IMG/VR virus record: IMGVR_UViG_3300037507_000172
Span: 1-25,115 of that record
DNA: 25,115 nucleotides
Source: a virus
Reading direction: 5' to 3' (one strand)
Positions within the stretch are counted from its first letter, which is position 1. Every line of letters starts with the position of its first letter. Below are positions 17,751 through 23,946 of the stretch, in pieces. A program made the translations under genes and the position numbers. The notes under the pieces were generated by a model. It saw only the letters and a list, made by a program, of their open reading frames with translations. It did no database searches and was not told the DNA's origin.

Positions 17751-18047
17751 TTAATTAAGGCGAGTAATTGATACTCTACCAACTCCAGAGCCGGTTAGAC
17801 CGATCTTGTCAGCCGCACCTTTACTTAGATCAAGACTCCTACCATGAGCGTAGGGACCCCGATCATTGACCCGAACAACGGCACACCTATTGTAACAAAC
17901 CTTAAGGCGTGTTCCAAAGGGTAGTGTCTTGTGCGCTGCCGTAAGGCCGTTTTGATTGTATCGTTCGCCATTGGCAGTCGTGTTTCCGTGGAAGCCAGGA
18001 CCATACCAAGAGCTGATAACAGACAGAGTAGTTAGAAGAGGTAGCAT
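17751..18047 (-). CDS. RlpA-like double-psi beta-barrel protein (putative peptidoglycan hydrolase)
   Basis: A 98-aa protein that is almost wholly one RlpA-like double-psi beta-barrel: SSWYGPGFHGNTTANGERY, GLTAAHKTLPFGTRLKV, VVRVNDRGPYAHGRSLDLSK and a final GVGRVSI strand. In bacterial RlpA this domain is a lytic transglycosylase acting on peptide-stripped glycan; D62 and H68 in NDRGPYAH lie in the conserved catalytic region. C51 and C55 could form a disulfide. Residues 1-11 (MLPLLTTLSVI) are hydrophobic but lack a basic start, so export is uncertain. An in-frame TAA lies one codon before the ATG's preceding codon, so it cannot start further upstream. It has no Shine-Dalgarno sequence at a usable distance and sits between two terminator-like hairpins. 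Confidence 0.85.
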   Translation of the reverse strand: MLPLLTTLSVISSWYGPGFHGNTTANGERYNQNGLTAAHKTLPFGTRLKVCYNRCAVVRVNDRGPYAHGRSLDLSKGAADKIGLTGSGVGRVSITRLN

Positions 18048-21211: not shown

Positions 21212-21415
21212 TTAAAGCTTACGTTTGGATTTAAGAAAGCGAATAACTTCAATCACTCCAGCCATACGTCCAGCTTCCCACGGAGTCATCTCGTGGTCTG
21301 GATACTGGTCTGGATACATCTGATCAAGTTCCTCGATGAGGGTATTTAGATCAATCCTCCCACCAATAACACTGGTGAGGGGAATGGTTTCGGTGTCAAA
21401 ATAGGCGTCAGCCAT
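21212..21415 (-). CDS. Small hypothetical protein
   Basis: A 67-aa acidic ORF beginning MADAYFDTETIPL and ending in a basic helix (VIRFLKSKRKL). I do not recognise a family. The ATG at 21415 overlaps the last 8 nt of the reductase small-subunit gene; an in-frame TTG at 21445 would add ten residues but needs a rarer start codon. The central segment (IEELDQMYPDQYPDHEMTPWEAGRMAGVIEV shape, split here as an acidic run followed by an Ala/Gly helix) suggests a small soluble helical protein. It sits between the dNTP cluster and the structural genes. Confidence 0.65.
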   Translation of the reverse strand: MADAYFDTETIPLTSVIGGRIDLNTLIEELDQMYPDQYPDHEMTPWEAGRMAGVIEVIRFLKSKRKL

Positions 21416-22139
21416 ATTGTGGAAGGTCGTTGTTAGAGGCTTCAAAGAAGGCAGGCATTCGAGCCCGCTGGGTATCCTTTAGTCCTGGGGCTTTTCCTTT
21501 TTCGTAGAGGGAATCAGATTGAGCCAACCAAAAATCTTTATCAAGATACCTGCTTTCAGATTTACCAAGCCCATCAACTACCCATCCCACAGTCGCTCTA
21601 CGAAGTCGATTGAGGCTTGATGTGGACTTGAGGCCCAACTCGGAGCAGACCATCGAGTGGATGGCGACATGCGTTTGTTCATCTCGGCTAATGTCGGCTG
21701 CTGTGGTTCGGATTCCGATGTCACCATTGAATCGGAAGAATGGGAGGATGACGAAGAAGACACTGCGTTCAAGGATAGCGGCTTTTAGGAGTGGATGTTC
21801 AGGGGCATCCAGCCACGCCTTAAGAATGTGCTTAGCTTCGGATTCAAACTTTTCATTTGAACCATGAGCAGCCACTACATAGTTAAGGGCTTGATCATGC
21901 CTCTCTTCATCCAATTGATTAGACAGTAGAGCTTCCCTAACACCAGGAGTATTAGGTAGTTCTTTTTCGAGTCCCTGTTGTAGAAACTCTCGCACCGGCA
22001 ATTCAAGATGACGGAGACCAAGGGCACGATAGATCGCATCCTTAGCCCCATCAACGAGTTTCCCCTTTTGAACAGCAACTGGAGTCCACTTTCTTTTTCT
22101 TGAAATTACTTGATCGTAGGGGGAAAGAGTTGCGTTCAT
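21408..22139 (-). CDS. Ribonucleotide reductase, small (beta) subunit, ferritin-like
   Basis: A 243-aa ferritin-like protein with the di-metal ligand pattern of class I reductase small subunits: an upstream Glu (E51 or E46), E78-x-x-H81 (DEERHDQAL), E124 (LERSVFF) and E154-x-x-H157 (DEQTHVAIH). Residue 242 is a Tyr in a flexible tail (NDLPQYG), consistent with the tail Tyr that relays the radical to alpha. By motif spacing, the radical-Tyr position four residues after the first His is Leu85, with Tyr87 two residues later. The ATG at 22139 overlaps the alpha stop (TAATG) and follows a GGAG, so it is preferred over an in-frame upstream start. Shorter than typical NrdB/NrdF. Confidence 0.83.
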   Translation of the reverse strand: MNATLSPYDQVISRKRKWTPVAVQKGKLVDGAKDAIYRALGLRHLELPVREFLQQGLEKELPNTPGVREALLSNQLDEERHDQALNYVVAAHGSNEKFESEAKHILKAWLDAPEHPLLKAAILERSVFFVILPFFRFNGDIGIRTTAADISRDEQTHVAIHSMVCSELGLKSTSSLNRLRRATVGWVVDGLGKSESRYLDKDFWLAQSDSLYEKGKAPGLKDTQRARMPAFFEASNNDLPQYG

Positions 22140-23572
22140 TATTCTCCGCAGGGAATACAAATGTTATCGTTGGTTGGTTCGGAAACAGGACAACCACAGT
22201 CTTCCTCTTCAAACGAAAAGAGATCCTTGAAGTCGTCATCTAGGGCAGCAAGAGCATCATCCTTTGCTTGCGTGTCTGGCATGACCTGAAGAGCATAATA
22301 AAGGGAAGTCTGGGATGATGCCATCCAATCCCTAAGGAACTCTCGGTCATAGGTCACAACATCGGACCAGCTATTAAAGGAGTATCCGTGAAATAGCATC
22401 GTTGAGCGGAAGAGTGTTACCACCCCATCAACTACCTTCTTGTAATCATGCCACCCTACTTCCGACGCGATTTCGCAGTCAGGCGGGTACGCATATGATT
22501 GAACTCCAAACGTCCCAGAATCGCGGTCAACGTGGCGGCTGATAGGAGGAGCCAACTCAGGAGTGGTAGTGTAGCCCCGAAGATCAATGTTGTTGTAACT
22601 ACAAGAAGCGGTAGGAGCAATAGCAAAGGCCCTCTGCATACCTGCTTGACGGGCGATCTGCGCCGCGATTTCGATTGACTTGGCCAGCTCCGAAACAAGA
22701 ACGTATGCTGGTGTGTGTGTTGGTTGGTGTGTGTGGTAAGCATCAAGAGCTTCTCCAAATTCTTTGTAGGTTACTTTATTCTGACAAAGGAAATTAGCCA
22801 GCCCAAGCACACCCAAACCAACCTGCTTGTCCACCTCAGGAGAAAGATACTCTCCTGTTTCTCCTACGCCAGTTTTAGCATGAAGAGCAACAAGAGAAGT
22901 CATCCCCTCCACAAAGGCAGGAGTTAGATCCTCGAACCTACAAGCACCCAAATTGACGTGCTGAAGTAGACAAGTACCACGGCTAGGAAGATAAACTTCA
23001 AGGCAGACATTTCCATAGATTCTATTACCTTCCGCATCGTAGCGGATCTTATTTAGCCATATATCACCCTTCTTAATTCCTTCAAGGGTAGCATCAATCA
23101 ACTCGGGTGGAGCAGATGTAAGGAACCCGGGGTCCACATTGAGGCAACGCTTTACCCAAGACAGCTCAGTACGGCTAGCCTTAATAAATTCAATAGCATC
23201 AGGGTGGGTGTAGTCAAGGTGGCACACAACAGCACCATTCTTGTAGACACCACCGCGCCTCAGGATTTCGTTGAGGGTTGAGTAGATTCTGGCGAACGAC
23301 ACAGGGCCAGACGCCACAAGTCCTCTTCCATTCTCGCTGCCTCGTTCACGGAGTTTAGAAAGGTGTACAGCAACTCCAGCTCCGTTGCGGAGAGCGTGGG
23401 AAACAAATCGCCACGAGGCTTCAATTCCATTGGGTCCCTCCATTTGATCTTCAACAACAAAAACCGTACAGCTCACGGGAAGGCGAGACTCTGGATCATC
23501 AATCCAATTTTGAACCCGACCAGTTCGGGCGATGGTGTTGGGGGTGTCTCCAAGGTCAGCGAAGGCAGTCAT
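22139..23572 (-). CDS. Ribonucleotide reductase, large (alpha) subunit, compact phage form
   Basis: A 477-aa reductase alpha subunit that converts ribonucleotides to deoxyribonucleotides. Visible catalytic features: C35 in LPVSCTVFV and C201 in GTCLLQHVNL (redox pair), N188-x-C190-x-E192 in GNVCLEV (thiyl-radical Cys with its Asn and Glu), a PTASCS loop at about 320, a Y425-Y426 pair (SLYYAL) as in the class I radical-transfer chain, and C-terminal shuttle cysteines C472 and C475 (CIPC). It is shorter than cellular NrdA and has no N-terminal ATP-cone, so allosteric activity control is probably absent. The Tyr pair, the C-terminal cysteines and an adjacent small subunit favour class I over class II. 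The stop overlaps the next start as TAATG. Confidence 0.93.
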   Translation of the reverse strand: MTAFADLGDTPNTIARTGRVQNWIDDPESRLPVSCTVFVVEDQMEGPNGIEASWRFVSHALRNGAGVAVHLSKLRERGSENGRGLVASGPVSFARIYSTLNEILRRGGVYKNGAVVCHLDYTHPDAIEFIKASRTELSWVKRCLNVDPGFLTSAPPELIDATLEGIKKGDIWLNKIRYDAEGNRIYGNVCLEVYLPSRGTCLLQHVNLGACRFEDLTPAFVEGMTSLVALHAKTGVGETGEYLSPEVDKQVGLGVLGLANFLCQNKVTYKEFGEALDAYHTHQPTHTPAYVLVSELAKSIEIAAQIARQAGMQRAFAIAPTASCSYNNIDLRGYTTTPELAPPISRHVDRDSGTFGVQSYAYPPDCEIASEVGWHDYKKVVDGVVTLFRSTMLFHGYSFNSWSDVVTYDREFLRDWMASSQTSLYYALQVMPDTQAKDDALAALDDDFKDLFSFEEEDCGCPVSEPTNDNICIPCGE

Positions 23573-23946
23573 ACGAGGTCGTCAAGAAATGGTGGTTGGT
23601 AGTTGGGCCCCTTGAGTATCTTACCATCTTCGCGGCGGAGGGGCTTCCCGTCTACGAACTTGCTCATGTTGGACTCAAACACCCGCTTGAGGGCGATGTC
23701 TAGGTTCCAGCCGCGAGCAACGGCATATTGGTAACAAACAAAAACAAGATCAGCGAGTTCCTTTAATGTGTGGATCTTGTCTTTATCGGTGTCCTCATTG
23801 ATGTGTGCTTCAAGAAGTTCATTGAATTCCTCTCGTATGAGAGTCATTTGCATCTCTTGAACCAGTTCATCATTTGGATCAATGGATTGTTCAGCGGCAA
23901 GTCGGAAGACAAACGCCTGTTCAATTAGATGTTCAGGGGTTTCCAT
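23569..23946 (-). CDS. mazG: MazG-like nucleotide pyrophosphohydrolase
   Basis: A 125-aa all-alpha NTP pyrophosphohydrolase of the MazG superfamily, which hydrolyses nucleoside triphosphates to monophosphates and pyrophosphate using Mg2+. The metal-binding pair is visible as E40-x-x-E43 and E63-x-x-D66 (REEFNELLEA and LKELADLVF). The C-terminal part, NMSKFVDGKPLRREDGKI with GPNYQPP, resembles the phosphoribosyl-ATP-pyrophosphohydrolase-like branch seen in phages. In cyanophages MazG has been proposed to adjust nucleotide or alarmone pools, but the substrate here cannot be read from sequence. Its stop overlaps the reductase start as ATGA, so it is likely coupled to dNTP synthesis. Confidence 0.85.
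   Translation of the reverse strand: METPEHLIEQAFVFRLAAEQSIDPNDELVQEMQMTLIREEFNELLEAHINEDTDKDKIHTLKELADLVFVCYQYAVARGWNLDIALKRVFESNMSKFVDGKPLRREDGKILKGPNYQPPFLDDLV

Follow-up and report, generated by a model that had tools for sequence, protein, structure and literature searches.

Where can the oxidising equivalent of a two-subunit reductase (RNR) be held, if its radical-generating subunit carries leucine at the usual tyrosine position? The question is raised by two neighbouring genes of IMGVR_UViG_3300037507_000172 (positions 1-25,115, here called the window), a 25-kb fragment of a T7-like cyanophage genome. The pair is very probably a two-subunit RNR of class Ø (Cyano SP, proposed subclass If) with a metal-centred oxidant and Tyr242 of beta as relay.

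Gene neighbourhood and the two subunits

The genes are transcribed from the minus strand in the order exonuclease, DUF3310, MazG, alpha, beta, small ORF, proline-rich ORF and portal, which is identical to that of Syn5 gp29-gp37. The MazG-type nucleotide pyrophosphohydrolase (23569..23946, minus strand) is followed, as in Syn5, by the alpha (catalytic) subunit (22139..23572, minus strand; 477 aa) and the beta (radical-generating) subunit (21408..22139, minus strand; 243 aa); the 3' end of beta is overlapped by the small ORF (21212..21445, minus strand), which takes the position of Syn5 gp35. At the junction, the stop TAA of alpha and the ATG of beta overlap by one base (TAATG), and this suggests coupled translation of the two subunits. 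Beta was numbered from the ATG at 22139; the ORF list gives 250 aa instead, from a TTG that lies 21 bases upstream. In relatives, alpha stands directly upstream of beta in 245 of 247 loci; in Microcystis phage Mic1, an exception, the class Ø beta (L084:3983-4753) is about 12 kb away from its class Ø alpha. Elsewhere in the window, a 98-aa ORF (17751-18047) between head genes matched phrog_7930 (lipoprotein precursor) and resembles an RlpA-type small barrel.

Alpha was matched by phmmer to PDB 7URG, the cryo-EM structure of the class Ø alpha of Synechococcus phage S-CBP4 (PMC9531940), with E 5.5e-208 over residues 12-462. No ATP-cone domain was matched in alpha, and the 7URG match begins at residue 12, so that there is no room for one; the first-pass annotation had rightly described alpha as short and devoid of this domain. 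Present are C35, N188, C190, E192, C201, Tyr425-Tyr426, CGC (459-461) and CIPC (472-475); from the sequence, C35/C201 were assigned as the redox pair and C190 as the catalytic cysteine, with N188 and E192. C35, C190, C201 and Tyr425-Tyr426 are kept in nearly all of 154 near-full alpha relatives, and N188 is invariant; redox cysteines and the radical-transfer pair had been recognised at first pass. The alpha tail (22148-22198) holds both CGC and CIPC; this double motif is not described in the class Ø paper, where tails were scored as CxC or CxxC, one or the other (Burnim 2022, PMC9531940). Both motifs occur in 64 of the 154 relatives by a loose pattern count in the last 26 residues.

Beta matched phrog_6799 (labelled class Ia beta) with E 1.9e-113 and contains all six di-metal ligands (E46, E78, H81, E124, E154, H157). 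The first motif, E78-E-R-H81-D-Q-A-L85-N-Y87 (codons 21879..21908, minus strand, computed from ATG 22139), carries Leu85 where E. coli NrdB has Tyr122, and Tyr87 at +6, as had been read at first pass with numbering from the same ATG; the second-sphere Asp153 (E. coli D237 equivalent) and the second ExxH (E154, H157) are encoded at 21669..21683 (minus strand). The complete ligand spacing arose in 22 of 100,000 shuffles of beta, and the six ligands are invariant across 193 distinct relatives save one unread residue; this ligand set is therefore not due to chance.

Direct sequence searches of Pfam, NCBIfam and PDB with beta gave no matches. PF00268 was touched by 9 of 36 class Ø beta members (best E 0.0036), and the window beta itself had no match to the Pfam R2 family; a PDB profile search returned weak R2 matches, among which the Plasmodium entries misalign the first ExxH. 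When the class Ø profile was compared (hhalign) with the single E. coli NrdB, the second motif alone was aligned. The usable alignment was that of 49 class Ø betas with E. coli NrdB and 14 class I betas, which was weak (E 0.0013, probability 19%), yet had all ligands in register (beta/E. coli NrdB): E46/D84, E78/E115, H81/H118, E124/E204, E154/E238, H157/H241; other sites: W18/W48, D153/D237, L85/Y122. An AF2 model of beta had a mean pLDDT of 89.8, with residues 228-243, including the Y242 region, mostly of low confidence; its best PDB fold matches (Foldseek) were R2 proteins, with Clostridium botulinum R2 and Chlamydia class Ic NrdB (ranks 2-5) at the head of the list; class Id of Flavobacterium was among the best by TM-score, and diiron R2s were also returned. 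Structure prediction and alignment with class I betas, the check proposed at first pass, thus returned an R2 fold and placed L85, not Tyr87, on Y122.

Relation to described classes

Cyano SP RNRs were reclassified as class I, with proposed subclass If, by Harrison 2019 (PMC6370689), in which the beta was found in P-SSP7, its lost Tyr was noted and the ligands were given as E-E-H-E-E-H with a D-D second sphere. The clade was named class Ø by Burnim 2022 (PMC9531940), where Phe or Leu was reported for the radical position and Tyr for the penultimate residue of beta, and where beta was described as unstable without metals; according to a 2026 preprint, the Cyano SP group is yet to be biochemically characterised (PMC12918982). 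Judged by its sequence, the window RNR is one more carrier of this type, with every clade feature that was tested: near-full-length 7URG homology at about 410-480 aa and without ATP-cone; a ferritin-like gene of about 240 aa immediately downstream of alpha; ligands E,E,H,E,E,H with a D,D second sphere (D77, D153) and Phe/Leu at the radical site; a beta that ends one residue past Tyr; and C-terminal CxxC/CxC in alpha (both). It shares alpha length, Tyr dyad, Glu as first ligand and the adjacent beta of about 240 aa with S-CBP4, P-SSP7 and Syn5, and differs from the one-or-other scoring of Burnim in that its alpha tail has CxC and CxxC. Its beta is 50-66% identical to those of the named marine phages compared (Mic1: 35%). 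The fit to cyanopodovirus RNRs that were reinterpreted as class I with an adjacent small subunit, proposed at first pass, holds and was already in print (PMC6370689, PMC9531940). Two facts count against the assignment: the sequence relation of beta to class I beta is weak, and the Burnim 2022 tree places the class Ø alpha clade outside class I (PMC9531940).

Among class I betas, class Ic NrdB (Chlamydia trachomatis, Mn/Fe) is alike in its Glu first ligand, Tyr-less radical site (Phe127), Tyr at +6 and fold, and differs in being about 100 residues longer at about 18% identity and in having Glu119 in the second sphere where the window beta has Asp77. The window beta thus lacks the second-sphere Glu of class Ic and, with D77 and no Pfam R2 match, stands outside the NrdBz/Ic sequence clade; class Ø beta is also separated from NrdBz/Ic betas in the trees of Harrison 2019 (PMC6370689). 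Class Id NrdB (Flavobacterium johnsoniae, Mn2; TMq 0.60) has the same Glu first ligand and a small partner alpha without ATP-cone, whereas its Tyr is retained at the radical position, though unused, and its second sphere has Cys96; class Id is defined by such a Tyr with Cys/Ser in the second sphere (PMC6370689 Tables 3-4), and the window beta has Leu85 and D77. For classes Ib and Ie, the NrdI activase and a Tyr or DOPA site are expected; no Tyr was found at the site, and no NrdI in 14 phage records of relatives and 4 cyanobacterial genomes. A Tyr-radical class Ia beta has Tyr four residues past the first ExxH His, where Leu85 is found here.

Several relatives are unusual in gene structure. The deposited betas of S-CBP4, P-GSP1 and P-RSP2 have interrupted reading frames (L083:3060-3120; L090:3065-3110; L191:2870-2890), with a run of five A in S-CBP4 and P-GSP1 against six in relatives. 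A programmed frameshift, suggested by these frames, was considered and rejected: the P-RSP2 break is at another place, and when viral contigs were scanned for the S-CBP4 form, S-CBP4 itself was the sole beta gene returned; the breaks are probably record-specific errors or mutations. In a phage-like contig that was binned as a gammaproteobacterium, a group I intron (L187:3361-3639; Rfam RF00028, E 1.3e-21) interrupts beta precisely at the boundary of the D153 and E154 codons, the latter encoding a metal ligand. A lone class Ø-like beta with Leu at the radical site and Asn at +6 (L183:3007-3723) sits between apparent cellular genes of Calothrix membranacea; this genome has a class II enzyme, and no class Ø alpha was found in its 8.8 Mb.

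Seat of the oxidising equivalent in beta

Conservation was examined in 193 distinct betas, window included, and in 49 non-redundant ones (<80% mutual identity); many are metagenome-derived, and several matches from bacterial MAGs probably represent phage contigs that were binned with bacteria. Leu (178) and Phe (15) are the sole residues at position 85, whereas position 87 is Tyr (168), Phe (20), Leu (2), Met (2) or Asn (1). Y242 (codon 21414..21416, minus strand) is the only invariant Tyr, Y8 being near-invariant (one Phe, two gaps); W18, W186, D77, D82 and D153 are invariant, and W109 nearly so. Beta ends in ...LPQYG, one residue after Y242, and the C-terminal Tyr of class Ø beta was proposed as the equivalent of E. 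coli Tyr356 by Burnim 2022 (PMC9531940). Both the presence and the invariance of these residues, as well as the lack of a second invariant Tyr, are read directly from the aligned sequences.

As the Tyr87 site is an unlikely one for the radical (see below) and there is no other invariant Tyr, the equivalent is most likely stored on the metals and relayed through W18, D153 and Y242. Beta would bind two metal ions through its six ligands and would react, NrdI-free, with O2 or reduced oxygen species; since Leu85 occupies the pocket, the oxidising equivalent would stay on the metals. Once substrate binds, it would move along W18-D153 to Y242, then to Tyr426/Tyr425 of alpha and to C190, which would start reduction at C35/C201, the latter pair being re-reduced by the tail cysteines; beta would dock on alpha via its Tyr-ended tail. 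A metal-centred oxidant like that of class Ic or Id is probable, with Mn/Fe (class Ic) the first candidate and Mn2 (class Id) the second. Rather unlikely is a cofactor chemically distinct from those of Ia-Ie, that is, a metal-centred oxidant formed without NrdI in an R2-like fold of unusually small size, and passed to alpha through a tail ending at the relay Tyr; it would be marked by W18, D77, D153, W186 and Y242 together with the six ligands and no other invariant Tyr.

Beta may instead use two irons like class Ia, in which case the oxidant would be Fe-centred and no organic radical would be involved; its ligand set is iron-compatible, and diiron R2s are found among its fold matches. This is improbable, since the known metal-bearing R2s without a working Tyr radical (Ic, Id) use Mn (PMC6370689), and the Glu-for-Asp first ligand is common only to these two classes (PMC6370689 Tables 3-4). 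That a Trp or the C-terminal Tyr242, and not the metals, stores the equivalent is still harder to accept: the invariance of W18, W186 and Y242 and the near-invariance of W109 speak for it, but W18 and Y242 match W48 and Y356, which in class Ia carry the radical only transiently, and a flexible C-terminal Tyr would be a poor store.

At first pass, a metal-based or relocated radical had been suggested; the Tyr-less site agrees with the first part, and the second, a stable radical on Tyr87, two residues past the usual position, is extremely unlikely. Tyr87 is common (36 of the 49 non-redundant betas) and is kept even in Mic1, but the other 13, all of which keep every ligand, have Phe, Met, Leu or Asn there; this variation argues against a Tyr87 radical. 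By helix geometry, position +6 from the His would face away from the His/+4 side, and the metal-centred Chlamydia NrdB has a Tyr at the equivalent place, two residues past Phe127. Phe/Leu at +4 with Tyr at +6 was also seen in three Bacteroidota R2 proteins (L294, L295, L299), likely metal-centred enzymes, with motifs such as EAIHTHAFLY (502-aa frame) and ENIHADSLLY; with Chlamydia, these indicate a pattern that is common to other R2 proteins.

Cyanobacterial hosts and the class II question

A class II reading, with a B12-dependent alpha and some other role for the ferritin-like beta, is scarcely credible: the best NCBIfam match of alpha is a class II model (TIGR02504, far under the cut-off), class Ø alpha was put nearer to class II by BLAST (Burnim 2022) and the hosts carry class II, but Tyr425-Tyr426 is conserved, the 7URG dyad takes up the room that an adenosyl group would need (PMC9531940), and beta is the adjacent gene in nearly all loci. 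A class II enzyme would be expected to have no beta and no Tyr dyad in the adenosylcobalamin pocket; the window encodes a downstream beta and the Tyr425-Tyr426 pair.

A class II RNR (RTPR match) was found in all 4 cyanobacterial genomes; none of the cyanobacterial genomes examined had a class I beta that passed the family cut-off. A search for NrdI in 14 phage records of relatives and the 4 cyanobacterial genomes found none, the window itself being a genome fragment; this argues against the Ib and Ie route of activation. Adaptation to iron-poor seawater, which had also been put forward at first pass, is unsupported: Cyano SP viruses are anti-correlated with predicted iron in the 2026 preprint, where this was attributed to host distribution (PMC12918982), and avoidance of nitric oxide was the alternative suggestion of Harrison 2019 (PMC6370689).

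The missing beta tyrosine had already been reported by Harrison 2019 (PMC6370689) and Burnim 2022 (PMC9531940); new are the conservation over 193 betas (L/F at 85, variable Tyr87, Y242 as sole invariant Tyr) and the absence of NrdI from the 14 phage records and 4 cyanobacterial genomes. Many cyanophages have class Ø RNRs, which a single study puts at the root of the class I and II reductases; the conservation narrows the choice of cofactor, as it makes a Tyr87 radical unlikely and leaves the metals as candidate store and the C-terminal Tyr as candidate relay. With such an enzyme, the phage would make deoxynucleotides in hosts whose own RNRs are B12-dependent class II enzymes.
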